Of a stretch of 64,000 nucleotides of DNA, positions 24,424 through 42,100 are shown piece by piece. The stretch lies in assembly GCF_004303025.1 (NCBI RefSeq), contig NZ_PJQW01000003.1, positions 62,001 to 126,000 on the forward strand. Direction: 5' to 3'. A program made the position numbers and the translations under genes. Source of the DNA: Flavobacterium sp. J27. GTDB lineage: Bacteria > Bacteroidota > Bacteroidia > Flavobacteriales > Flavobacteriaceae. The notes under the pieces were generated by a model. The model made no database searches, had not been told where the DNA came from, and saw nothing but the letters and a program-made list of their open reading frames with translations. How positions within the stretch are numbered: the stretch's first letter is position 1; each line of letters begins with the position of its first letter.

Positions 24424-25341
24424 ATGGAAAAATTTAAAGTACATAAAATTAATACAATTAGCGAATTTCACACCATTGCAAATTTGCCAAAACCTGAGCA
24501 TCCATTGATTAGTTTAATTGATTATTCTAAAGTGGAATATCAGTTTGCAGAGAAAGAAGTCGTTTGGATTCAAGGTTTCTATACCATTGGATTAAAGCGA
24601 AATGTAGCTGGAAAGTTTGTTTACGGACAACAAATTTACGATTTTAATGAAGGATTGTTGACATTTATTGCATCTGGTCAACGTATTCAATATGAGTTTG
24701 TTGAACAAGAAATAAAACCTTCAGGTTGGCTATTAGTAATTCACCCAGATTTTTTATGGAATACACCATTAGCAAAACAAATTAAACAATATGATTTTTT
24801 TGGATATGCTGTAAATGAAGCTTTGTTTTTGTCTGAAAAAGAAGAAAATGTATTGATAAATGTAATGCAGAATATAGAATTAGAGTATCATTCATTGATA
24901 GATAAATTTAGTCAGAACATAATAATAGCTCAAATAGAGGTTTTGTTAAACTATGCTGAGCGTTTTTATCAGCGTCAATTTATAACAAGAAAAATTACTA
25001 ATCATCATATTTTAGGGCAATTTGAAGACTTGTTATCTGAATATTTTGATGGGAATAGTTTAATTCAAAATGGGTTGCCAAGCGTAAATGAAATAGCAAG
25101 TAAATTAAATATCTCATCAAATTACTTAGGAAATTTACTTAAAAGTTTAACAGGTCAAAATACACAACAGCATATTCAAGATAAGATTGTAGAAAAAGCA
25201 AAAGAAAAACTTTCAACTACAGCGCTAAGTATAAGTGAAATCGCTTTTGATTTAGGCTTTGAACATTCGCAATCGTTTAGCCGTTTTTTTAAAAGCAAAT
25301 CAGGAAAAACACCTATTGAATTCAGAATGGGATTTAATTAA
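24424..25341 (+). CDS. AraC-family transcriptional regulator (paralogue 2 of 3)
   Basis: A 305-residue protein with the same N-terminal block as its paralogues (TISEFHTIANLPKPEHPLIS), cupin-like sensor (YGQQIYDFNEGLLTFIASGQ, LLVIHPDFLWNTPLAKQIKQ), and C-terminal double HTH (LPSVNEIASKLNISSNYLGN, LSISEIAFDLGFEHSQSFSR). The segment DFLWNTPLAK is almost identical in the protein encoded at 27335, marking these two as the closer pair. It is convergent with the nitroreductase gene at 25368, separated by a shared terminator. Confidence 0.92.
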   Translation: MEKFKVHKINTISEFHTIANLPKPEHPLISLIDYSKVEYQFAEKEVVWIQGFYTIGLKRNVAGKFVYGQQIYDFNEGLLTFIASGQRIQYEFVEQEIKPSGWLLVIHPDFLWNTPLAKQIKQYDFFGYAVNEALFLSEKEENVLINVMQNIELEYHSLIDKFSQNIIIAQIEVLLNYAERFYQRQFITRKITNHHILGQFEDLLSEYFDGNSLIQNGLPSVNEIASKLNISSNYLGNLLKSLTGQNTQQHIQDKIVEKAKEKLSTTALSISEIAFDLGFEHSQSFSRFFKSKSGKTPIEFRMGFN

Positions 25342-27334: not shown

Positions 27335-28249
27335 ATGAATCAGCAAACCATACACAGAGTAAAATCGATTGCAGAATTTCATAAAATGAAAGGGTTGCCT
27401 TCACCACAACATCCATTAATTAGTATTTTTGATTATAGTAAAATAGAATGTTCCAAAGAGGTAAACCATAAAAATTTTGTTTTTGATTTTTATCATATCT
27501 CATGCAAAAGAAGCATTGGTACAAAATATAAATACGGACAAGGAAATTATGACTTTGATGATGGTGTAATGTTTTTCATTGCACCTAATCAAGTCTTTGG
27601 AATCGAACCCATAGCAGAAATTGCAACACCAAAAAGTGGTTGGATATTGATGGTGCATCCTGATTTTCTATGGAATACACCTTTGGCTAATACAATAAAA
27701 AAATATGATTTTTTTGACTATTCTGTAAATGAAGCTTTGTTTTTATCTGAAAGGGAAGAAACTATTTTGAAAGGTATTGTTAAAAATATTGAACAAGAAT
27801 ACAATGCCAATTTAGACCAATTTAGTCAGAGTATTATTATTTCCCAAATTGAAACAATGCTTACTTATTCTGATCGATTTTATCAAAGACAGTTTTTAAC
27901 CAGAAAAGCTAGTAATCATAAAACTTTAGACCATGTTGAAAAACTGATAGAAGATTACTTTAATGATGAAAATAACTTAGGCTTACCTTCTGTTCAATAT
28001 ATTGCCGATGCTTTACATATTTCTCCAACCTATTTGAGTAGTTTGTTGAAATCTCTTACAGGACAAACCACGCAACAGCATATTCATGAAAAATTAATTG
28101 AGAAAGCTAAAGAAAAATTATCTACAACAACACTAACAATTAGCGAAATAGCTTACGAATTAGGTTTTGAACATTCTCAATCATTTAATAAATTATTCAA
28201 AGCCAAAACGAAACTTACTCCCATGATGTTTAGAGATCAATTTAATTAA
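27335..28249 (+). CDS. AraC-family transcriptional regulator (paralogue 3 of 3)
   Basis: A 304-residue protein with SIAEFHKMKGLPSPQHPLIS at the N-terminus, the sensor core YGQGNYDFDDGVMFFIAPNQ and MVHPDFLWNTPLANTIKKYD, and the C-terminal double HTH (LPSVQYIADALHISPTYLSS, LTISEIAYELGFEHSQSFNK). It is closest to the 24424 protein. The three proteins form a recent-looking paralogous family in a 20-kb stretch, each beside an SDR, so they probably sense related compounds and control the paired reductases. Confidence 0.92.
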   Translation: MNQQTIHRVKSIAEFHKMKGLPSPQHPLISIFDYSKIECSKEVNHKNFVFDFYHISCKRSIGTKYKYGQGNYDFDDGVMFFIAPNQVFGIEPIAEIATPKSGWILMVHPDFLWNTPLANTIKKYDFFDYSVNEALFLSEREETILKGIVKNIEQEYNANLDQFSQSIIISQIETMLTYSDRFYQRQFLTRKASNHKTLDHVEKLIEDYFNDENNLGLPSVQYIADALHISPTYLSSLLKSLTGQTTQQHIHEKLIEKAKEKLSTTTLTISEIAYELGFEHSQSFNKLFKAKTKLTPMMFRDQFN

Positions 28250-29796: not shown

Positions 29797-29843
29797 TATG
29801 TAAAATAGCTAACATTTTTTAAAAAAGGATTATGCTATTTTTG
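29797..29843 (+). promoter_or_regulatory. arsS promoter with shared arsenic-cluster box
   Basis: The 17-base box TATGTAAAATAGCTAAC (29797-29813) is followed, 22 bases later, by TATTTTTG (29836-29843), a good -7 element. The same box with one mismatch occurs at 34004-34020, with a TACTTTTA -7-like element at the same distance. It is probably the site of the missing regulator's binding or a shared activator site. Confidence 0.6.
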
Positions 29844-29875
29844 TTCCTCTCGATACATTGAATAAACAGAAAAAT

Positions 29876-30931
29876 ATGTTGAAATCACTTCATGCAAAAG
29901 AAAGTCCGTTGTCAAAAACAGATAAGCAATTGGAAATTCTCTCCAGCGGAATTTTTAGAGATGGGTCGTTGCCTACTTTTGCAGATCAGATTAATAAGAC
30001 TGACCAATTCCCTTTACAACCCCGAAACATTGAAATATTACAAATTAATGTGGGTTATATGTGCAATCAGGTTTGTGCTCATTGTCATGTAGATGCTGGT
30101 CCAGATAGAAAAGAAATAATGACAAAAGAGACCATGATGCAAATTTTAGACGTTCTAAAAACAACAGCTGTTACCACTTTAGATTTAACTGGAGGAGCAC
30201 CTGAAATGAACCCAAATTTTAGATGGTTTGTAGAAGAAGCGTCTAAAACAGGTGTCAAGGATTTTATTGTTAGATCTAATTTGACAATTATTAGAGCTAA
30301 TAAAAAATATTACGATTTGCCAGCCTTTTTTAAAAAGCACAATATTCATGTAGTAAGTTCTATGCCACATTGGACTAAAGGAAAAACGGATGTACAAAGA
30401 GGAGAAGGCGTTTTTGATAAGTCTGTCCAAGCGCTACAAGAATTAAACGCTATTGGTTATGGTATGCCAGATAGTAATTTAAAATTAGATTTAGTTTATA
30501 ACCCTTCAGGAGCTTTTCTTCCAAGTGATCAATTTTCTATGGAAAAAGATTTTAAAAAAGCGTTAAAAGAAGATTTCAATATTCATTTTCACAACCTATT
30601 CGCTATTACAAATTTACCGATTTCTCGATTTCTCGACTATCTTATCGCATCAGATAATTATGAAGATTATATGTATGCCTTAGTAGAAGCCTATAATCCT
30701 GCTGCAGTAGCAAATGTAATGTGTACTAATACAATATCTGTTAGTTGGGATGGGTGGTTATATGATTGCGATTTTAACCAAATGTTAGATTTAAAAGTAG
30801 CTTCTAAATCAAAACATATTTCAGAATTTAATGAAGCAATTTTAAATAACAGAAATATCGTGATTTCTCAACATTGTTACGGTTGTACAGCAGGAGCAGG
30901 AAGTAGTTGTCAAGGTGTTGTAGTATCTTAA
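29876..30931 (+). CDS. arsS: Arsenosugar biosynthesis radical SAM protein ArsS
   Basis: With the ATG at 29876, the protein is 351 residues (a TTG 18 bases upstream is a weaker start). Radical SAM motif: C63-x3-C67-x2-C70 (GYMCNQVCAHCH), followed by DLTGGAPEMNPNFRWFVEEA. A C-terminal Cys cluster (QHCYGCTAGAGSSCQG) likely binds a second iron-sulfur cluster. In the known pathway ArsS joins the 5'-deoxyadenosyl group of SAM to dimethylarsinous acid. It heads the operon with the downstream transferase, phosphorylase, channel and arsM genes; the spacing to the next gene is 2 bases. Confidence 0.95.
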   Translation: MLKSLHAKESPLSKTDKQLEILSSGIFRDGSLPTFADQINKTDQFPLQPRNIEILQINVGYMCNQVCAHCHVDAGPDRKEIMTKETMMQILDVLKTTAVTTLDLTGGAPEMNPNFRWFVEEASKTGVKDFIVRSNLTIIRANKKYYDLPAFFKKHNIHVVSSMPHWTKGKTDVQRGEGVFDKSVQALQELNAIGYGMPDSNLKLDLVYNPSGAFLPSDQFSMEKDFKKALKEDFNIHFHNLFAITNLPISRFLDYLIASDNYEDYMYALVEAYNPAAVANVMCTNTISVSWDGWLYDCDFNQMLDLKVASKSKHISEFNEAILNNRNIVISQHCYGCTAGAGSSCQGVVVS

Positions 30932-30933
30932 AA

Positions 30934-31539
30934 ATGAAAGAAAATTTAATTTTAATATTTACAAGAAACCCCGAATTAGGTAAGGTTAAAACTCGTTTAG
31001 CAGCCACTATTGGTAACGAAAATGCATTAGAAGTATACATTTATTTATTAGAGCATACTAAGAAAACGGTTTTAGAAACTAACGTTGATAAGAGAGTATT
31101 GTATTCTGAAGTAATCAATAACAATGATATTTGGGATAATCAATTCTTTCAAAAAGGAAAACAAATTGGGAATAATTTAGGAGAACGAATGTATCACGCT
31201 TTTAGAGAAGGTTTCAAAGAAGGATATCAAAAGATTGTTATTATAGGTTCCGATTTGATTGCTTTAGAAAGGAATGATATTGATAAAGCGTTCCAAAAGC
31301 TAAAAGATCATGATATAGTTCTTGGTCCTGCTCTAGATGGAGGTTATTATTTATTAGGAATGAAAACAATGCATGAAAAAATATTTCAAAATAAAGAATG
31401 GAGCACGGCTACCGTTTTTAAAGATACTTTAGAAGATATTTCAGAATTACCATATTATTTGTTAGAAGAGAAAAACGATATAGATACTTACGAGGATATA
31501 AAAGAAATACCAGTTTTTAAAAAATATACGATTACATGA
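30934..31539 (+). CDS. TIGR04282-type arsenosugar glycosyltransferase-like protein
   Basis: Starting at the ATG at 30934 (2 bases after arsS) gives 201 residues beginning MKENLILIFTRNPELGKVKT. The motif FTRNPELGKVKTRLA and later VIIGSDLIALERNDIDKAFQ, DHDIVLGPALDGGYYLLGMK match the TIGR04282 nucleotide-diphospho-sugar-transferase-like family of arsenosugar clusters. It should bind a nucleotide sugar or a similar phosphate compound. An earlier start inside arsS is unlikely. It overlaps the phosphorylase gene by 4 bases (ATGA). Confidence 0.9.
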   Translation: MKENLILIFTRNPELGKVKTRLAATIGNENALEVYIYLLEHTKKTVLETNVDKRVLYSEVINNNDIWDNQFFQKGKQIGNNLGERMYHAFREGFKEGYQKIVIIGSDLIALERNDIDKAFQKLKDHDIVLGPALDGGYYLLGMKTMHEKIFQNKEWSTATVFKDTLEDISELPYYLLEEKNDIDTYEDIKEIPVFKKYTIT

Positions 31540-32351
31540 CACAAGAAATTTTAAATTCAACAACTCAATTTTTACAACAAAAAGGATTTCTTAATCCAGA
31601 AATAGGGATAGTTTTAGGCACAGGTTTAGGACAGTTAGTACATCATCTTCAAGTTGAGGTAAGTATCAATTACTCTGAAATTCCAAATTTTCCAGTCTCA
31701 ACCGTAGAATTTCATTCAGGAAAATTACTATTAGGAATGTTAGAAGGAAAGAAAGTTATAGTAATGCAAGGTCGTTTTCATTTGTATGAAGGCTATAGTT
31801 TACAAGAAATAACTTTTCCAATACGTGTAATGAAAGCCTTAGGGGTTTCTAGTTTGTTAATTTCAAATGCTGCTGGTGCTATCAATTTAAATTATAAAAA
31901 AGGAGATTTAATGTTGTTGGACGATCATATCAATTTACAAGGAGGTTCTCCTTTGGCTTTTGCAACTGTTTCAGATTTTGGTGAGCGTTTTACAGACATG
32001 TGTACCCCTTACGATATTTCGTTGAACACTAAAATATTAGCTATAGCTAATGAGAATAATATTGTTTTGCATAAAGGAGTTTATGCTGCTGTTGTAGGAC
32101 CACAACTTGAAACCAGAGCGGAATATCGTTATTTGAAAATTATTGGAGCTGATGCTGTAGGGATGAGTACAGTTCCAGAAGTTATTGTAGCAAATCATTT
32201 ACAATTGCCAGTTATGGCTGTTTCTGTTTTAACTGACGAATGCAACCCAGATGATTTAAAACCTGTAAATATTCCTGAAATTATTGCCGTAGCAGGGGAA
32301 GCAGAGCCTAAAATGATCACACTTTTTAAAGAATTAATAAAATCTAAATGA
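31536..32351 (+). CDS. Purine nucleoside phosphorylase (trimeric type)
   Basis: A 271-residue PNP with GIVLGTGLGQLVHHL, FHSGKLLLGMLEGKKVIVMQ, GRFHLYEGYSLQEIT, ISNAAGAINLNYKKGDLMLL, DHINLQGGSPL, and VVGPQLETRAEYRYLKIIGA. It cleaves purine nucleosides with phosphate. In an arsenosugar cluster its natural target is presumably the 5'-deoxy-5'-dimethylarsinoyl-adenosine made by ArsS, releasing adenine and the arsenosugar phosphate. It is joined by ATGA overlaps at both ends, so translation is coupled. Confidence 0.93.
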   Translation: MTQEILNSTTQFLQQKGFLNPEIGIVLGTGLGQLVHHLQVEVSINYSEIPNFPVSTVEFHSGKLLLGMLEGKKVIVMQGRFHLYEGYSLQEITFPIRVMKALGVSSLLISNAAGAINLNYKKGDLMLLDDHINLQGGSPLAFATVSDFGERFTDMCTPYDISLNTKILAIANENNIVLHKGVYAAVVGPQLETRAEYRYLKIIGADAVGMSTVPEVIVANHLQLPVMAVSVLTDECNPDDLKPVNIPEIIAVAGEAEPKMITLFKELIKSK

Positions 32352-33016
32352 GAAGATATATTGCCGAAATTATAGGAACTTTCGCCATTGTTTTTTGTGG
32401 AACTGGTGCTATAATTATCGATCAAGAAACAAACGGAACCATTTCTCATTCGGGTATTGCTATTACATTTGGGTTAATTGTAATGGCAATGATATATGCT
32501 TTAGGAAGTATTTCAGGAGCTCATTTTAATCCGGCTGTTACTATTGCATTTTCAATCGCAAATAAATTTAAAAAAAGAGAGATCATTCCCTATGTTATAA
32601 GTCAGTTTTTAGGGGCAATATTAGCTAGTGGATTATTATATTTACTTTTTCCATCAAATGCCTTTTTAGGAGCAACTATTCCTTCTGGAAGTAACATGCA
32701 ATCTTTTATACTAGAATTTATACTTACATTTTTATTAATGTTAGTTATTTTAAGTGTGGCACATGGTTCAAAAGAGCAAGGTATGTTTGCGGGCATTGCG
32801 ATAGGATCAGTTGTAGGTTTAGAAGCGATGTTTGCTGGGCCCATTTGTGGAGCTTCAATGAATCCAGCTAGGTCCTTAGGACCTGCTTTTGTGGCTGATC
32901 AAATGGAGCAACTATGGATCTATTTATTAGCACCTACATTAGGTGCAGCAGTTGCCGTTTTTATCTGGAGTTATCTTACTAATAATAAATTAAAAGAAAA
33001 AATAATTAAGCTATGA
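32348..33016 (+). CDS. MIP-family aquaporin/aquaglyceroporin-like channel
   Basis: A 222-residue membrane channel with six hydrophobic helices and both NPA motifs: GAHFNPAVT (about residue 63) and GASMNPARS (about residue 175). The N-terminal MRRYIAEIIGTFAIVFCGTG is typical of bacterial MIP proteins. In an arsenic cluster it probably passes arsenite or a small neutral arsenic species across the inner membrane. It overlaps both flanking genes by 4 bases. Confidence 0.93.
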   Translation: MRRYIAEIIGTFAIVFCGTGAIIIDQETNGTISHSGIAITFGLIVMAMIYALGSISGAHFNPAVTIAFSIANKFKKREIIPYVISQFLGAILASGLLYLLFPSNAFLGATIPSGSNMQSFILEFILTFLLMLVILSVAHGSKEQGMFAGIAIGSVVGLEAMFAGPICGASMNPARSLGPAFVADQMEQLWIYLLAPTLGAAVAVFIWSYLTNNKLKEKIIKL

Positions 33017-33984
33017 AAAATTATTTAGACGCTACAAACGATTTGTATAAAAATGCTGCTTTAACTCCTGACGTGGGCTTGTGCTGTACCACAACTCCTA
33101 TATGGAAATTTCCAGGACTGGAAATTCCTCAAATTATGCAGGAAATGAATTATGGGTGTGGAAGTACTATTGCAGCTCAAGATTTAATTAATAATCCGAA
33201 AGTGTTATATGTTGGTGTTGGAGGTGGAATGGAATTGTTGCAATTTGCTTATTTTTCTCGTCAAAAAGGAGGCGTAGTAGGTGTGGATGTTGTAGATGAA
33301 ATGCTAGAGGCTTCTAGGAAAAATTTTCAAATCGCTGAAGAACAAAACGATTGGTTTAAAAGTGAATTTGTAGAATTAAAAAAAGGAAATGCATTAGAGT
33401 TACCTATCGAAGACGAGAGTATAGATGTGGCTGCTCAAAATTGTCTTTTTAATATTTTTAAAACGGAAGATTTAAAAAAAGCATTACAAGAAATGTATCG
33501 TGTTTTAAAACCACACGGTCGTTTAGTAATGAGTGATCCCACATGCGAACAGGAAATGAACGCAACACTTCGTAATGACGATCATTTAAGAGCTCTTTGC
33601 TTAAGTGGCAGTATTCCAATAAAAGAATATATTAAAGCGCTAACAGACGTAGGTTTTGGAACTATTGAAATTAGAGGTAGACGTCCTTATCGTATTTTGG
33701 ACCCTGAAAATTATCCTACAGACGAGTTAATTTATATTGAAAGTATTGAAGTATGTGCTATTAAAGATCCTATGCCAGAAGATGGACCGTGTGTTTTTAC
33801 TGGTAAAGCGGCAATATATTATGGAAAAGAGGATTATTTTGACGATCAAAAAGGACATGTATTGCTAAAAAATCAACCTTTAGCCGTTTGCGATAAAACG
33901 GCAAATGCTTTAGCTAGTTTAGGAAGAAAAGATATTTTTATCAGTGAAAGTACATTCCATTATAATGGTGGAGGTTGTTGCTAA
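33013..33984 (+). CDS. arsM: Arsenite methyltransferase ArsM (arsenosugar type)
   Basis: A 323-residue SAM-dependent methyltransferase. Arsenic-binding Cys candidates are C24-C25 (VGLCCTTTPIW), C49 (NYGCGSTI) and a C-terminal CC. The SAM loop is VLYVGVGGGMELLQFAYFS, followed by GVDVVDEMLEASRKNF and later GRLVMSDPT. It methylates arsenite toward dimethylarsinous acid, the substrate of ArsS. It is the last gene of the ATGA-coupled arsS operon; the next gene starts after 86 bases carrying its own regulated promoter. Confidence 0.94.
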   Translation: MKNYLDATNDLYKNAALTPDVGLCCTTTPIWKFPGLEIPQIMQEMNYGCGSTIAAQDLINNPKVLYVGVGGGMELLQFAYFSRQKGGVVGVDVVDEMLEASRKNFQIAEEQNDWFKSEFVELKKGNALELPIEDESIDVAAQNCLFNIFKTEDLKKALQEMYRVLKPHGRLVMSDPTCEQEMNATLRNDDHLRALCLSGSIPIKEYIKALTDVGFGTIEIRGRRPYRILDPENYPTDELIYIESIEVCAIKDPMPEDGPCVFTGKAAIYYGKEDYFDDQKGHVLLKNQPLAVCDKTANALASLGRKDIFISESTFHYNGGGCC

Positions 33985-34003
33985 AAAGTTCGTTTTTTAA
34001 AGT

Positions 34004-34050
34004 TATGTAATATAGCTAACGTTTTGTTTTTTTGTCGTATCTTACTTTTA
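34004..34050 (+). promoter_or_regulatory. Second promoter with the shared arsenic-cluster box
   Basis: TATGTAATATAGCTAAC (34004-34020) differs at one of 17 bases from the arsS box. TACTTTTA (34043-34050) lies 22 bases later, exactly as at arsS, 20 bases before the ATG at 34071. Confidence 0.6.
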
Positions 34051-34070
34051 CCAAATTCAAAAACAAAACA

Positions 34071-34889
34071 ATGAAAAAAACAGCTATTTTAAGTATTGTA
34101 TGTGCGTTTGGATTTCAATTTACAAATGCACAAAGTCCGTGGACAAGAGAAAAAGGCAGCGCTTATTTACAGCTAGGTGTTACTAGTTTGAGTTATGATG
34201 CCCTTCAATTAGATGGTCATAAAGTGGAGAATATAGGTGATTATTCAGATGTTACATTTCAGATTTATTCTGAATTTGGAATCACAAACAAGTTGGAAGC
34301 ACAATTAATATTGCCTTATAAAACGGCTAATTATGATAACGCAGGGGTTTCACAAAGTATTTCTGGATTAGGTAATGTTTCTCTAGGATTAAAATACAAA
34401 TTATCGGATGGCAATTGGAAAATTAGTTCAGGAGTTTTATTTACAGCTAATTCGATTAAGAAAGATGAAAGCCTAGTAGTCAGTTCCACAGGAATTAATG
34501 CCAATACAATTTTACCTTACGTAAGTATCGGTTCTAGTTATAATAAATGGTACTATTTTGGTATGCTTGGTTATGGTTATATGGACAACGATTATTCAGA
34601 TTATCTAAAAGCAACCATTGAAGTGGGTTATAATATTATTCCTAAAGGTCATTTAATGTTAGTTTTGGATACCAGAAATCCAATTGCAAAAGAAGATGCT
34701 TATTTTAATGATGCCGTTCAGTGGGCTTCTCATTTAGATAGACAAACATATAATGCTATTGGTATCAAAGCTAATTATGAATTTATTCAGGATAAATTTG
34801 GGGCTAATTTTTCTACCTTTGGTGCTTTTGGAATAGATAACGCTCCTTTAGCGCCAACTATTAATATTGGTGTTTATACAAAATTATAA
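34071..34889 (+). CDS. Outer-membrane beta-barrel-like protein of the arsenosugar cluster
   Basis: The ATG at 34071 gives 272 residues with a signal peptide (MKKTAILSIVCAFGFQFTNA, then Q). The mature protein is a run of amphipathic beta strands (GSAYLQLGVTSLSYDALQLD, LEAQLILPYKTANYDNAGVS, GNVSLGLKYKLSDGNWKISS, FGMLGYGYMDNDYSDYLKAT) and ends INIGVYTKL. It is probably an outer-membrane channel or barrel that allows arsenicals or cluster products to cross the outer membrane. It heads a second operon with the desaturase-like gene (2 bases downstream) and shares the arsS-type box. Confidence 0.75.
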   Translation: MKKTAILSIVCAFGFQFTNAQSPWTREKGSAYLQLGVTSLSYDALQLDGHKVENIGDYSDVTFQIYSEFGITNKLEAQLILPYKTANYDNAGVSQSISGLGNVSLGLKYKLSDGNWKISSGVLFTANSIKKDESLVVSSTGINANTILPYVSIGSSYNKWYYFGMLGYGYMDNDYSDYLKATIEVGYNIIPKGHLMLVLDTRNPIAKEDAYFNDAVQWASHLDRQTYNAIGIKANYEFIQDKFGANFSTFGAFGIDNAPLAPTINIGVYTKL

Positions 34890-34891
34890 TA

Positions 34892-35764
34892 ATGAATAAG
34901 TATAAAGAAATAATAATAACATCCTATTCAGATTATTTTAATTATCTGAAAAACGAATTGGTTACATTGCACATTGAAAACTATTTTTATGGATTACTCA
35001 TTATTTCTTTATTGGTTTTTGTTTTAGAAATTGTATTTCCTTGGCGAAAAAATCAAGCCATTATAAGAAAAGATTTTTGGTTAGATACATTCTATATGTT
35101 TTTTAACTTCTTTCTTTTAAATCTTATTATTTTAATGGCAATGAATAATGTAACGGCACAGTTGTTTAATGATTTTTTAGCCTTATTTGGTTTACATTTA
35201 CAATCATTACAACTCCTTGATTTGTCTCAGTTTTCCAAGCCAGTTGCTTTATTAGTTTTCTTTATAATTACCGATTTTATTCAATGGAATACGCATCGTT
35301 TATTGCATCGGTTTGAATTCTTTTGGAATTTCCATAAAGTGCATCATTCTGTAAAAGAAATGGGATTTGCAGCTCATTTACGATATCATTGGATGGAACC
35401 AGTTGTCTATAAAACATTATTGTATGTGCCCGTTGCCATTATTGGTGGTTTTAGTATTCAAGACGTATTTATTGTGCATTTTATAGCTATTACTATTGGC
35501 CATTTAAATCATGCCAATATTGGTTGGGATTATGGACTTTTTAAATATATACTCAATAATCCCAAAATGCATATTTGGCATCATAGTAAAGAAATGCCAA
35601 GAAAGTATGGTGCAAATTTTGGTATTTCACTAAGTGTATGGGATTACATGTTTAAAAGCGATTACATTCCAAAAGATGGCAAGGATATTGAACTTGGATT
35701 TGAAAACGATGAAGAATTTCCTAAAGATTTTATAAAACAAGAAGCGTATCCGTTACAATTATAA
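34892..35764 (+). CDS. Sterol desaturase/fatty-acid hydroxylase family membrane enzyme
   Basis: A 290-residue membrane protein with hydrophobic segments at about 35-55, 70-95 and 115-135 and the diiron His clusters of the family: HRLLH, HKVHHS, HLNHAN and HIWHHSKE. Members hydroxylate or desaturate lipids or other alkyl chains using O2 and reductant. Its place behind the arsenic-type promoter suggests a step that oxidises or links the arsenosugar, possibly to a lipid; this is inference. Only 2 bases separate it from the upstream outer-membrane gene. Confidence 0.88.
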   Translation: MNKYKEIIITSYSDYFNYLKNELVTLHIENYFYGLLIISLLVFVLEIVFPWRKNQAIIRKDFWLDTFYMFFNFFLLNLIILMAMNNVTAQLFNDFLALFGLHLQSLQLLDLSQFSKPVALLVFFIITDFIQWNTHRLLHRFEFFWNFHKVHHSVKEMGFAAHLRYHWMEPVVYKTLLYVPVAIIGGFSIQDVFIVHFIAITIGHLNHANIGWDYGLFKYILNNPKMHIWHHSKEMPRKYGANFGISLSVWDYMFKSDYIPKDGKDIELGFENDEEFPKDFIKQEAYPLQL

Positions 35765-35838: not shown

Positions 35839-36537
35839 ATGAAAAAATATATTATTCTACTATTTTTCTTTTCAGTACCCATTTTTTCTCAAAATTTTGA
35901 CTATAAAGAGTATGGCTTATTATTAAGTAAACATGTCTCTAATAAAGGAAATGTAAACTATAGTCTATTGCAATCAAATGTAATGGATCTAAACAAAGTA
36001 GTACGTCAATTTGAAATGAACTACCCTACTAGTAAATGGTCTAGAAATGAAATTTTAGCCTATTATATTAACGCCTATAATGTGTATACGTTAAAAAAAA
36101 TAATTGATAATTATCCTGTAAAAAGTATTAAAGATATTAATAACGCTTGGGATGATAAGTTTATAACTTTGGGTTCTAAGAAAATTTCGTTGACTTATAT
36201 TGAACACAATATCTTGAGAAAAATGAATGAACCAAGGATTCATTTTGCGATTAATTGTGCTTCTTATTCCTGTCCAATATTAGCTAATGTTCCTTATCTA
36301 CCAAAAACACTAGATAATCAACTAGAAACTGCTGCTAAAAAATTTATTAATGATAGCACGAAAAATATATTATCGGTAAATGAAATAAAGATTTCTGAGA
36401 TTTTTAATTGGTTTTCCAAAGATTTTAAAACCCAAAATAACTCTTTAATTACTTATTTGAATCAATTTGCAGACATCAAAATCAATGAAAATGCTAAAAT
36501 TCGTTATTTAGAGTATAATTGGAATTTAAATGAATAA
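35839..36537 (+). CDS. Exported DUF547 protein
   Basis: A 232-residue protein with a signal peptide (MKKYIILLFFFSVPIFSQ). DUF547 features are visible: EILAYYINAYNVYTLKKIID, ARIHFAINCASYSCPILANV-type core (here PRIHFAINCASYSCPILANV, Cys residues at INCASYSC), and a C-terminal FADIKINENAKIRYLEYNWN. The family is of unknown activity, often papain-like in fold and linked to membrane or lipid processes; a Cys is retained. It precedes the TIGR04283-type transferase by 2 bases, so it belongs to the arsenosugar cluster. Confidence 0.85.
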   Translation: MKKYIILLFFFSVPIFSQNFDYKEYGLLLSKHVSNKGNVNYSLLQSNVMDLNKVVRQFEMNYPTSKWSRNEILAYYINAYNVYTLKKIIDNYPVKSIKDINNAWDDKFITLGSKKISLTYIEHNILRKMNEPRIHFAINCASYSCPILANVPYLPKTLDNQLETAAKKFINDSTKNILSVNEIKISEIFNWFSKDFKTQNNSLITYLNQFADIKINENAKIRYLEYNWNLNE

Positions 36538-36539
36538 GC

Positions 36540-37229
36540 ATGATTTCTGTTATCATACCCACTTTCAATGAACAAGAAAATATTGCTATACTATTAGATT
36601 ATCTCCTAGAAAATAAAGGTGATAACACAATTAAAGAAATTATTTTAGTTGATGGTGGAAGTACAGATAATACGCTTAAGATTGCAAAAATATATAAAAG
36701 TATTACCATCTTGCAATCTGAAAAAGGTAGAGCGAAACAATTAAATTATGGTGCTCAATTTGCTAAGGGAGAAATACTCTATTTTTTACACTGTGATAGT
36801 TTGCCTCCTAAAAAATTTGATAGTCTTATTATAAATGAAGTAGGGAAAGGAAATTTAGCAGGTTGTTTTAAAATGAAATTTAACTCTAATCATATTGTTT
36901 TAAAAATAACACAATGGTTTACACAATTTAATGTAAAGTTTTTTAGAGGAGGTGATCAATCTTTATTTGTTACCAAAAAGATATTTCAAGAAGAGAAAGG
37001 CTTTAATGAAAAATATCGAATTTATGAAGATAATGATTTGATTTATAGATTGTATAAGAAAATAGGTTTTACAGTTATTCAGCAACATATCATTACATCT
37101 GCAAGACGATATGAGGAAAATGGGTTCTGGAAATTGCAATATCACTTTATGATGATTCATCTACTGTATAATTTAAAGATTTACAACCAAGAGAAAATTT
37201 TACAATATTACAGTAGAAATATAAAATAG
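36540..37229 (+). CDS. TIGR04283-type arsenosugar family-2 glycosyltransferase
   Basis: A 229-residue GT-A-fold transferase: ISVIIPTFNEQENIAILLDY at the N-terminus, EIILVDGGSTDNTLKIAKIY, ILYFLHCDSLPPKKFDSLII (with HCDS in place of a typical DxD), and FRGGDQSLFVTKKIFQEE, RIYEDNDLIYRLYK. This fits the TIGR04283 family found in arsenosugar clusters, which transfers a sugar or glycerol-type group from a nucleotide donor. It is the last gene of the cluster. Confidence 0.92.
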   Translation: MISVIIPTFNEQENIAILLDYLLENKGDNTIKEIILVDGGSTDNTLKIAKIYKSITILQSEKGRAKQLNYGAQFAKGEILYFLHCDSLPPKKFDSLIINEVGKGNLAGCFKMKFNSNHIVLKITQWFTQFNVKFFRGGDQSLFVTKKIFQEEKGFNEKYRIYEDNDLIYRLYKKIGFTVIQQHIITSARRYEENGFWKLQYHFMMIHLLYNLKIYNQEKILQYYSRNIK

Positions 37230-37999: not shown

Positions 38000-38821
38000 A
38001 TGATTTACACTGGTCAAATAAATGAATTCATTCGATTGGAAGAAATAACGCCCAATAATTGTGAATTACTGAAAGAAAAAATTAAAGAAGGACTTAGTAT
38101 TATTTGGGCAGTTGAAGCATTGCATATTAAAGTAGACGGTGTGGTTACTTTAGTAAAAGAAAATGAAATCATTTTTGTAACCGAATATCATAATGTAGAA
38201 ATTGTTCAAGTTCAGAAAGTTAGGTTAATTCGATTTAATAGAGCTTTCTATTGTATTCTAGACCATGATAGCGAAGTAGGTTGTAAAGGAGTTTTGTTTT
38301 TTGGTGCTGCGCAATTAGCTAAAATTGAAATCCCGAATTTAGAATTTGAAAAATTTGAAACACTTTGGAAAATGTTTGTCATTGAAATGTTATCCAAAGA
38401 CGATCTCAAAAGCGAAATGTTACAAATGATGTTAAAACGACTGCTTATTCTTTGTATTAGAATTTATAAAGAACAAGCGGAATTAACACATTTTGATAAG
38501 CAACAATTTGATATTGTTAGAGAATACAATTATTTGGTGGAAATTCATTTTAGAAGCAAACATCAGGTGTCAGATTACGCTGTTTTATTACATAAAAGCC
38601 CAAAAACTTTATCGAATGTGTTTAAAAAAGTGGGTAAAAAAACACCTTTGCAAATTATTCAGGATCGAATTATGTTAGAATCTATTCGATTATTACGCTA
38701 TACAGATAAATCTATTAAAGAAATTACATATGAAGTAGGTTATGAAGACATTCAAACTTTTAGTCGTTTTTTTAAAAAAATAGAAGGTGTTTCCCCTTCT
38801 GAGTTTAAGAAAAAGGGGTAA
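38000..38821 (+). CDS. AraC-family transcriptional regulator
   Basis: A 273-residue regulator with a cupin-like N-terminal sensor (GLSIIWAVEALHIKVDGVVT, NEIIFVTEYHNVEIVQVQKV) and a C-terminal double HTH (HQVSDYAVLLHKSPKTLSNV, KSIKEITYEVGYEDIQTFSR). It is not close to the three paralogues at 8235, 24424 and 27335. It probably controls the alkylhydroperoxidase-like gene 112 bases downstream. The ligand is unknown. Confidence 0.9.
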   Translation: MIYTGQINEFIRLEEITPNNCELLKEKIKEGLSIIWAVEALHIKVDGVVTLVKENEIIFVTEYHNVEIVQVQKVRLIRFNRAFYCILDHDSEVGCKGVLFFGAAQLAKIEIPNLEFEKFETLWKMFVIEMLSKDDLKSEMLQMMLKRLLILCIRIYKEQAELTHFDKQQFDIVREYNYLVEIHFRSKHQVSDYAVLLHKSPKTLSNVFKKVGKKTPLQIIQDRIMLESIRLLRYTDKSIKEITYEVGYEDIQTFSRFFKKIEGVSPSEFKKKG

Positions 38822-40569: not shown

Positions 40570-40801
40570 TTTAAAATAGTAATCAATTTTCAGAAAAGTT
40601 TTATGCTATTTTTAGTTTAAACCAAAATGTTTAAATATACAAAATCATTCGAATCATTAAAAAAATCTTTTCTAAAAGCTTATTTATCTTGATTTATCAA
40701 ATTAGTTTATCTAGAATGGAAAGCTATTTTTAAATAAAAGTAAGATTTCTAACTTTTATTAGTATCTTAAAACTTTATTTTTACCCAGTTAAATTTTTAA
40801 T

Positions 40802-42100
40802 ATGGAACACATCGTCATAATTGGAAATGGAATTTCTGGTGTTACACTAGCGAGACATATTCGTAAAAATTCAGATAAAAAAATTACTATTATCTCTGCG
40901 GAAACAGAATATTTCTTTTCCAGAACTGCGTTAATGTATGTTTATATGGGACATATGAAATTTGAACATACGCAACCATATGAAAACCATTTTTGGAAAA
41001 AAAACAGGATCGATTTAGTATTTAAAAAAGTGGATAAAGTACTGCCAAATGAAAATAGTTTGCTTTTAAACGATCAAACGAAATTCTCTTATGATAAATT
41101 AGTGATTGCTACAGGTTCAAAGTCAAATAAATTTGGTTGGCCCGGTCAAGATGCTAAAGGTGTTTTGGGATTGTATCATAAGCAAGATTTGGAAGAATTA
41201 GAAGTTTTGTCGAAAGAAGCTAAGCATGCCGTAATTGTGGGAGGAGGTTTGATAGGAATTGAATTAGCCGAAATGTTACTTACTCGAAAAATAGGAGTTA
41301 CTTTTTTAGTGAGAGAAAAGTATTTTTGGGGAAGTGTTTTACCAGAAGGTGAGGCAAAATTAATAGAGAAACATATAAAAGAACATCATGTCGATTTGCG
41401 TTTGGAAACCAATTTGAAAGAAATTCTTACTGATGAAAATGGAAGAACGAAAGCAATTCTAACAGAAGAAGGAGATGAAATTGAATGCGATATCGTTGGA
41501 CTAACGGTAGGCGTTTCACCGAATATTGCTTTTTTAGAAGGTTCTGGTATTGAAACGAACAAAGGTGTTTTAGTAAATCGTTTTTTAGAAACTAATCTTT
41601 CAAATATTTATGCAATAGGTGATTGCGCAGAACAAAGAGAAGCTATTGGATACAGAAGACCAGTGGAAGCGGTTTGGTATACAGGAAGAATGATGGGTGA
41701 AGTTTTAGCGCAAACTATTTGTGGTAATAAAATGGCATATAATCCAGGACCTTGGTTTAACTCTGCTAAATTTTTGGATATAGAATACCAAACGTATGGT
41801 TGGGTTTGGGCAAAACCAAGAGACTATGAGAAACAAATCTATTGGGAACATAAGTCAGGTAAAATAGCCGTTAGAATTGCTTATCATAAAGAGACACAAC
41901 AGTTTTTAGGGATTAATACTTTCGGTATCAGAATGCGTCATGATTTTTTTGATAAAGTCTTAAGAGAGCAAAAGACAGTAGGTTATGTAATTGATCATTT
42001 AAAGCAAGCTAATTTTGATCCTGAATTTTATACACATTATGAGAAAGAAATGACACAGGAGTTTAAATCAGTATTACAAACAGTAAGAGCACACATATGA
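40802..42100 (+). CDS. FAD/NAD(P)-dependent oxidoreductase
   Basis: A 432-residue flavoprotein with FAD motif IVIIGNGISGVTLARHIR, second Rossmann motif VIVGGGLIGIELAEMLLTRK, and the FAD-binding NIYAIGDCAEQREAIGYRRP. It resembles NADH-rubredoxin and nitrite-reductase-type disulfide-family reductases without a redox CxxC. The extra C-terminal part (GPWFNSAKFLDIEYQTYGWV) is shared with large flavobacterial relatives. It overlaps the membrane Fe-S gene by 4 bases, so the two probably pass electrons to one another. Confidence 0.9.
   Translation: MEHIVIIGNGISGVTLARHIRKNSDKKITIISAETEYFFSRTALMYVYMGHMKFEHTQPYENHFWKKNRIDLVFKKVDKVLPNENSLLLNDQTKFSYDKLVIATGSKSNKFGWPGQDAKGVLGLYHKQDLEELEVLSKEAKHAVIVGGGLIGIELAEMLLTRKIGVTFLVREKYFWGSVLPEGEAKLIEKHIKEHHVDLRLETNLKEILTDENGRTKAILTEEGDEIECDIVGLTVGVSPNIAFLEGSGIETNKGVLVNRFLETNLSNIYAIGDCAEQREAIGYRRPVEAVWYTGRMMGEVLAQTICGNKMAYNPGPWFNSAKFLDIEYQTYGWVWAKPRDYEKQIYWEHKSGKIAVRIAYHKETQQFLGINTFGIRMRHDFFDKVLREQKTVGYVIDHLKQANFDPEFYTHYEKEMTQEFKSVLQTVRAHI

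Follow-up and report, generated by a model that had tools for sequence, protein, structure and literature searches.

The arsenosugar biosynthesis cluster of Flavobacterium sp. J27 contains two promoters with closely similar DNA boxes, through which a CRP/FNR-type activator very probably makes two operons of the cluster part of a thiol/methionine-sulfoxide redox regulon. We analysed a 64,000-nucleotide stretch of contig NZ_PJQW01000003.1 (positions 62,001 to 126,000 of the forward strand, hereafter the window) together with the whole genome (G000) and with genomes of the genus and family. Box 1 lies between an AhpD-like gene and arsS, and box 2 lies between arsM and a porin-like gene. The gene of the predicted regulator (G000:C7:9872-10537) is located outside the window. 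The sites, their spacing and conservation, the target set and the co-occurrence with the regulator were established by computation.

An earlier reading of the window from its letters alone (the sequence-only reading) had described two 17-base boxes, TATGTAAAATAGCTAAC (29797-29813, + strand) and TATGTAATATAGCTAAC (34004-34020, + strand), with a single difference across the 17 bases and with 22 bases between each box and its -7 element. Both the 16/17 match and the distance were confirmed at these positions. The -7 elements are TATTTTTG in the arsS promoter (29836..29843, + strand; predicted to occupy -12 to -5, with a predicted transcription start at 29848) and TACTTTTA in the second promoter (34043..34050, + strand; placed in the same way, with a predicted start at 34055). 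The conserved unit is a 16-mer that begins 2 bases later than the 17-mer, and the spacer to the -7 element is then 21 bases. Each box is an imperfect inverted repeat, a degenerate copy of the 16-bp TGTTAG-N4-CTAACA that ends 21 bp before a TAnnTTTG-type element. The refined units are TGTAAAATAGCTAACA for box 1 (29799..29814, + strand), a predicted CRP/FNR-type site of the arsS promoter, and TGTAATATAGCTAACG for box 2 (34006..34021, + strand), which is predicted to be a weaker site and belongs to the promoter lying after arsM and before the porin-like gene. At class II promoters, CRP and FNR sites are centred at -41.5. The F. psychrophilum start-site map (PMC9723704) places TAnnTTTG at -12 to -5; by that convention, with a spacer of 21 bases and a predicted start in this genome, the repeat would cover -49 to -34 and have its dyad at -41.5.

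A window scan with up to three mismatches found four places. This count is unremarkable because 5 of 100 shuffles also reach four (shuffle mean 1.33); boxes 1 and 2 are the only matches without mismatch. The genome-wide motif scan that the sequence-only reading had called for was run over 4.33 Mb and returned only these two copies of the 17-mer at 0-1 mismatch, but the composite of inverted repeat and -7 element occurs at further promoters. Three further places match the 17-mer at 2 mismatches, and none of them has the promoter layout of a box, about 22 bases and a -7 element.

The composite was approached with a pattern built from the relatives of box 1, TGTNANATAGCTANC-N21..23-TANNTTT, which matched 16 places, spread over 12 of the 398 genus genomes; the reversed control matched one place. 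All 16 places share the 21-base spacer, though three lengths were allowed. Eleven of them are arsenosugar promoters, and the other five are in G303, G085, G301, G122 and G134. In G303 and G085, a perfect inverted repeat, TGTTAGATAGCTAACA, stands right behind a CRP/FNR-family gene; its symmetry at positions 4 and 6 was not demanded by this pattern, whereas later scans demanded symmetry. The G301 site precedes an MsrB-MsrA fusion (Pfam), and the G122 and G134 sites precede a protein that was read as MsrB by reading alone.

The distribution of the composite follows one CRP/FNR subfamily. A homologue of the CRP/FNR protein of G303 was found in 12/12 genomes with the box and in 0/4 tested genomes that have arsS and no box. 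A search with the regulator of this genome gave matches at E ≤5.4e-70 in 21 of 396 genus genomes, and the next match (2.7e-40) belongs to a different subfamily. In 120 further genus genomes, this second CRP/FNR subfamily (~35% identity) provides the sole match. Every one of the 12 box genomes belongs to the 21 that carry the regulator (Fisher test, 1.1e-17), as do 10/10 (1.5e-14) when the two genomes whose sites adjoin the regulator gene are set aside. A scan of the 396 genomes for TGTTAG-N4-CTAACA-N21-TANNTTTG (TAnnTTTG), with at most one mismatch, found the composite in 19 genomes; 16 of these belong to the 21 regulator-bearing ones and 3 to the 375 others (1.5e-21). The reversed control gave 11 matches in the genus and none in the 21 regulator-bearing genomes.

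Because the genus genomes are related, these p-values overstate the association, and a sample drawn across genera is the better test. Of 219 genomes sampled from the family, 61 have the regulator subfamily, this one among them, and 40 genomes with and 40 without it, one per genus, were compared. The composite was found in 36/40 and 0/40, respectively (2.5e-18; reversed control, 1 and 2 matches), and usually has the form TGTTAG-NTAG-CTAACATTTTA or near it. In 33 of the 36 genera, a site begins downstream of the regulator gene and on its strand, 4-205 nucleotides from where the match to the gene ends (32 within 48 nucleotides). In G303, which is from the genus sample, the site overlaps the last codons of the regulator gene. 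Sites elsewhere in the genome weigh more because an adjoining site travels with the regulator gene. Such sites were found in 15/40 versus 0/40 genomes across genera (1.2e-5) and in 12/21 versus 3/375 genomes of the genus.

Three genus genomes without the regulator (G039, G057 and G355) have one composite match each (L252, L248 and L239, respectively). L252 precedes a thioredoxin-like gene that resembles, by reading, the one at L221, and may be a remnant; L239 is inside an open frame. At G416:C23:45578-45651 and G469:C34:83779-83852, one palindrome has a spaced -7 element on each strand and might serve this regulator as a bidirectional promoter. Another flavobacterium has, on a contig that bears arsS, a perfect palindrome, TGTTAGTTAACTAACA (L089:20633-20648); on each strand a T-rich element follows at 21 bases, but TAnnTTTG is absent.

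The same pattern was seen among genomes that have arsS. With at most 2 mismatches, 16 such genomes were compared: seven with the regulator gave 50 composite matches (control, 5), and nine of the 15 without it gave 2 (control, 6). Where the regulator is absent, the site network is therefore absent too, the arsS site included. In this genome, nine palindromes occur at up to one mismatch, five inside long open frames and four outside. When distances of 18-26 bases were scanned without imposing the spacing, all four outside long frames were followed by TAnnTTT at 21 or 22 bases. The informative unit is the composite with its fixed spacing only.

Seven composite matches with up to 2 mismatches were found in this genome, and none for the reversed control. 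A start codon follows 16-61 nucleotides past the -7 element at all seven sites, one of which overlaps the end of the preceding gene. The predicted targets are arsS, msrA, a gene for a YHS protein (above the NF041384 cut-off, just below that of Pfam YHS) followed by msrB (SelR), and genes for an AhpC/TSA redoxin, a DsbH-like thioredoxin below the DsbH cut-off, a DM13 protein and a DUF547 protein. Judged by these predicted targets, the box is not arsenic-specific and is part of a putative genome-wide redox regulon. At the DsbH-like thioredoxin promoters of several species (L221, L254, L255 and L257), the spacer keeps TTTGGCAT..TTTTTTG or near it, which we take to be reminiscent of a sigma-54 -24/-12 element overlapping the CRP-type promoter.

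The regulator protein has a cNMP-binding domain (PF00027, 1e-18) and a Crp helix-turn-helix (PF13545, 1.4e-11), both above the gathering scores. Its AlphaFold2 model (mean pLDDT, the predicted local distance difference test, 76.5) has a CRP-like fold; the best PDB matches are MtbCRP, NtcA and GlxR by fold (E ~1e-17, template-modelling score ~0.7) and MtbCRP, CooA, GlxR and NtcA by sequence. It scores 73.1 bits against the NCBIfam CRP equivalog NF008732 and is below the cut-off of 266. Cys17, His19, His28 and Cys105 are invariant in 30/30 aligned members of the subfamily, a pattern that may point to a redox or metal signal. Behind the regulator in other genera there is mostly a gene that reads as encoding a lipoprotein (of two scanned, one had RskA_C and the other no family), and a redoxin-like gene then follows in many of them (Redoxin and AhpC-TSA in both scanned). 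In G301 (C169, L174), a fragment of a second regulator gene occurs in addition to the full-length one, with a site, TGTTAGGAATCTAACA, just behind the fragment and ahead of a lipoprotein-like gene. The assignment of this regulator to the sites is drawn from co-occurrence, adjacency and fold, which together make its binding a prediction.

The conservation of the two boxes was examined in relatives. The arsS search covered 299 genus genomes, 20 of which have the gene, and a species-level genome collection with 80 arsS loci, two of them labelled Flavobacterium; the regulator-bearing genomes G301, G302, G303 and G313, beyond G299, were outside the arsS search. Box 1 was found at the same place in 5/5 genomes of the 299-genome draw that have both arsS and the regulator, and in 0/15 with arsS and no regulator (Fisher test, 6.4e-5). 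Of the close relatives, G278, G061, G232 and G149 retain it intact; in G220 and G131, which are near relatives, it has decayed or given way to other sequence. G315 and G388, from outside the draw, carry both box 1 and the regulator, but they are no independent evidence for the box because the box search found them. Thus, the expectation that the box is conserved upstream of arsS held for close relatives with the regulator, and failed for relatives without it and for the collection loci.

Box 2 was found in 5/7 of the known genomes with arsS and the regulator, this genome counted. The variants before the porin-like gene are TGTCAGATAGCTAACT in G278 and G061, TGTAACATAGCTAACT in G149 and TGTAATCTAGCTAACG in G315, and the differences in the first two variants leave the right half-site intact. 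In G149, the gene ahead of the variant is a nucleoside phosphorylase gene and not arsM; the completeness of this genome is 76%, and stops interrupt its arsS in the assembly used.

A second copy of the box was observed in the arsS promoters of G232, G149 and G388 (L147, L153 and L149), that is, in three of seven promoters. It lies 21 bp downstream of box 1, between the box and the -7 element, and matches at 13/15 bases in G232 and at 11/15 in each of G149 and G388. The arsS promoters of G000, G278, G061 and G315 lack it (5-7/15 bases at the 21-bp offset). Centred near -20.5, the second copy might act negatively.

Based on the sites and their position, we infer that a homodimer of the CRP/FNR subfamily protein binds each box, reading TGTTAG-N4-CTAACA in CRP geometry (TGTTA-N6-TAACA). 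With the dyad at -41.5 of a sigma-A promoter of the TAnnTTTG type, it would be a class II activator that recruits RNA polymerase, rather than a repressor. The two promoters would drive the genes for arsS, a glycosyltransferase, a purine nucleoside phosphorylase, a MIP channel and arsM, and those for the porin-like protein, a hydroxylase, a DUF547 protein and a further glycosyltransferase. The same regulator would drive msrA, YHS-msrB and the redoxin, thioredoxin, DM13 and DUF547 genes; with one regulator for both sets, the arsenosugar genes would be expressed with the thiol/methionine-sulfoxide redox regulon. The signal is probably oxidative or thiol-reactive and perhaps includes arsenite itself. 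Comparative evidence thus favours the proposal of the sequence-only reading that the box is a shared operator or activator site of two operons, as close relatives with the regulator keep the boxes and the position fits a class II activator; its restriction to the arsenic cluster did not hold, and the box appears to belong to the wider redox regulon.

Several observations weigh against this interpretation. No box was found upstream of arsS in 80/80 loci of the genome collection (17-mer at up to 3 mismatches; composite matrix score of at least 13); because none of these loci has the site at arsS, the link between arsS and the site is not ancestral and is confined to some lineages. Matches to the 17-mer with 2-3 mismatches about 3-4 kb past arsS in L038, L045, L074, L085, L105 and L110 were rejected, being within the arsM coding sequence. 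The matrix used here was built from 29 non-arsenic sites out of 32 composite sites of regulator-bearing genomes; two sites of G061 and one of G134, near-copies of those in G278 and G122, were omitted. In favour of the interpretation, boxes 1 and 2 rank first and second in the window by this matrix, with scores of 24.4 and 15.4. However, box 2 has 4 mismatches to the composite motif, and its score is reached in 6 of the 80 collection loci (1.53 Mb); on score alone, box 2 would be unconvincing as a site, and its case therefore rests on conservation. In G232, about 50 nucleotides separate arsM from the porin gene and contain no box 2, and the 17 kb retrieved from G388 yielded neither box 2 nor any match to arsM or the porin gene. 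The bare palindrome lacking the -7 element is unenriched in this genome (174 versus 357 for the reversed control, up to 2 mismatches). At up to 3 mismatches, the composite shows a small excess (17 versus 10), and some of the matches are inside coding sequence, so the targets added at this level (a Thioredoxin_9 and a Pyr_redox_2 protein) are weaker. The palindrome and the spacer in the genus composite and across-genera scans were partly imposed by the pattern searched. A scan with another matrix found no site in the 3.7 kb surrounding the regulator gene of this genome. Finally, co-inheritance of another factor with the regulator may be an alternative cause of the association.

Other explanations of the boxes were considered. 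The neighbouring genes are arsenic genes and ArsR control of ars operons is common, so the boxes could be operators of an arsenic-specific ArsR/SmtB repressor that is released by arsenite. In this genome, the composite is also found ahead of msr, thioredoxin, redoxin and DM13 genes, and it is because these non-arsenic redox genes carry it that an ArsR operator is disfavoured; the motif also tracks the CRP/FNR gene over the genus and family, and the fixed -41.5 position suits an activator. Judged by the distribution and position of the motif, we regard such a repressor as very improbable. Half-sites of an AraC-family activator, arranged as direct repeats with a 21-bp period, would account for the second copies in G232, G149 and G388, and the window contains an AraC-type helix-turn-helix in the gene at 38000-38821 (Pfam) as well as genes at 24424 and 27335 that are of AraC type by reading alone. 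The other four arsS promoters lack such a copy, the motif is an inverted repeat elsewhere, its distribution follows the CRP/FNR gene, and there is no AraC-type gene in the 5 kb upstream of the G232 cluster; the chance that this arrangement is the right one appears very slight.

A different CRP/FNR paralogue might bind the sites, or the bound protein might repress under some conditions. Flavobacteria have several CRP/FNR genes, including the second subfamily that is the sole match in 120 genus genomes, and position alone does not prove activation. Among those 120 genomes, however, the composite occurs only in G355, inside an open frame, and the site adjoining the regulator gene in 33/36 genera points to the subfamily proposed here, so this variant seems improbable. 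A chance resemblance between the boxes, or duplication of a promoter that has no regulatory role, is suggested by the occurrence of just two 0-1 mismatch copies in the genome, yet we find this extremely improbable in light of the 5/5 versus 0/15 distribution of box 1 and of the right half-site that box 2 keeps while varying among relatives. Activation by the regulator encoded at G000:C7:9872-10537 thus remains the preferred explanation.

The limits of the two operons are predicted, and all of their genes are on the + strand. Operon 1 begins with arsS, which encodes the arsenosugar radical SAM protein (29876..30931; NCBIfam TIGR04167, 435 bits against a cut-off of 300). It continues with genes for an arsenosugar glycosyltransferase (30934..31539; TIGR04282), a purine nucleoside phosphorylase (31536..32351; family searches) and a MIP-family channel (32348..33016; family search), and ends with arsM, for the arsenosugar arsenite methyltransferase (33013..33984; NF038099, 573 bits against 400). 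ArsS and ArsM both pass curated cut-offs, and the cluster is an arsenosugar biosynthesis cluster; it also includes, ahead of arsS, genes for a rhodanese (NF045521) and the AhpD-like protein (TIGR04169). Operon 2 starts with the porin-like gene (34071..34889), an open frame with no Pfam or NCBIfam family and named by reading alone, whose product shows no relation to the outer-membrane-like protein L238. A fatty acid hydroxylase-type protein gene follows (34892..35764; PF04116), and genes for a DUF547 protein (35839..36537; PF04784) and a family 2 glycosyltransferase (36540..37229; PF00535) probably belong to the same operon.

In the closest relatives (L132, L133, L134 and L136), extra genes that the window lacks are located between arsS and the TIGR04282 gene, namely a second glycosyltransferase-like gene and genes of 1063-1070, 480-481, 444 and 275-293 amino acids; the 1063-1070 and 480-481 pair would be an outer-membrane receptor pair by reading alone. 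Genes of AraC type or reading (24424-25341, 27335-28249 and 38000-38821) flank the arsenic cluster, and in G278 and G061 a gene whose start is similar occupies the position of the 27335 gene. A weak third candidate site, AGTAAGATTTCTAACT (40739-40754, + strand; matrix score 12.7), stands 21 bases before TATTTTTA (40776-40783) and precedes an FAD/NAD oxidoreductase gene (40802-42100; Pfam) and a 4Fe-4S protein gene. Its sequence is identical in G061, G278 and G315, where the surrounding intergenic DNA is also well conserved.

The proposed system resembles that of E. coli CRP, whose site is TGTGA-N6-TCACA, in the CRP fold, the helix-turn-helix, the half-site spacing of the inverted repeat and the predicted dyad at -41.5. 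The half-sites TGTGA and TGTTA are equal at 4/5 positions. The differences are the Bacteroidota-type sigma-A promoter, the missed CRP equivalog cut-off, and the recognition helix, which is SRPTLN here and SRETVG in CRP. The helix here keeps the arginine (SR), and proline and asparagine replace the CRP glutamate and arginine, a change that would be compatible with the missing second G of the half-site. MtbCRP, NtcA, GlxR and FNR belong to the same superfamily as the regulator, with 20-25% identity among the structural alignments listed; the sites of FNR and NtcA differ from TGTTAG-N4-CTAACA.

Within the same phylum, the CRP-family regulator BT4338 of Bacteroides also has a palindromic site; its motif is TATGTTnTAnAACATA and its regulon serves sugar use (PMC3878776), compared with TGTTAG-N4-CTAACA and mostly redox targets here. 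A CRP/FNR regulon study of an anammox community places Flavobacteriales homologues near MalR, with predicted carbon sensing (PMC8510549). Known arsenosugar clusters share ArsS (TIGR04167) and ArsM (NF038099) with this one, and a redox CRP/FNR site at arsS was seen in none of the 80 collection loci. A full-text literature search for the motif in six written forms did not find it, and none of the matches listed by searches on arsenosugar regulation and on CRP/FNR with methionine sulfoxide reductase was recognisable as this kind of control.

A CRP/FNR activator site and its regulon are, as such, of an already known kind. New, if confirmed, would be the regulon of this subfamily and the placement of the arsenosugar genes in it. 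A likely regulator, a motif and a target set can now be named for the subfamily, and they provide a testable hypothesis of how and why bacterial arsenosugar genes are controlled, jointly with methionine-sulfoxide and thiol repair. Because the sites, too, are missing from close relatives that have arsS and no regulator, simple gene removal in cultured environmental strains of Flavobacterium could test the link. More speculatively, and with considerable doubt, the subfamily could be a thiol- or metalloid-reactive sensor by which some Flavobacterium sense trivalent arsenic or its oxidant stress and switch on methionine-sulfoxide repair plus arsenosugar synthesis, in which case arsenosugar formation would be a form of thiol protection and not only arsenic disposal. 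If the proposed regulon is real, arsenosugar synthesis would be tied to redox stress.

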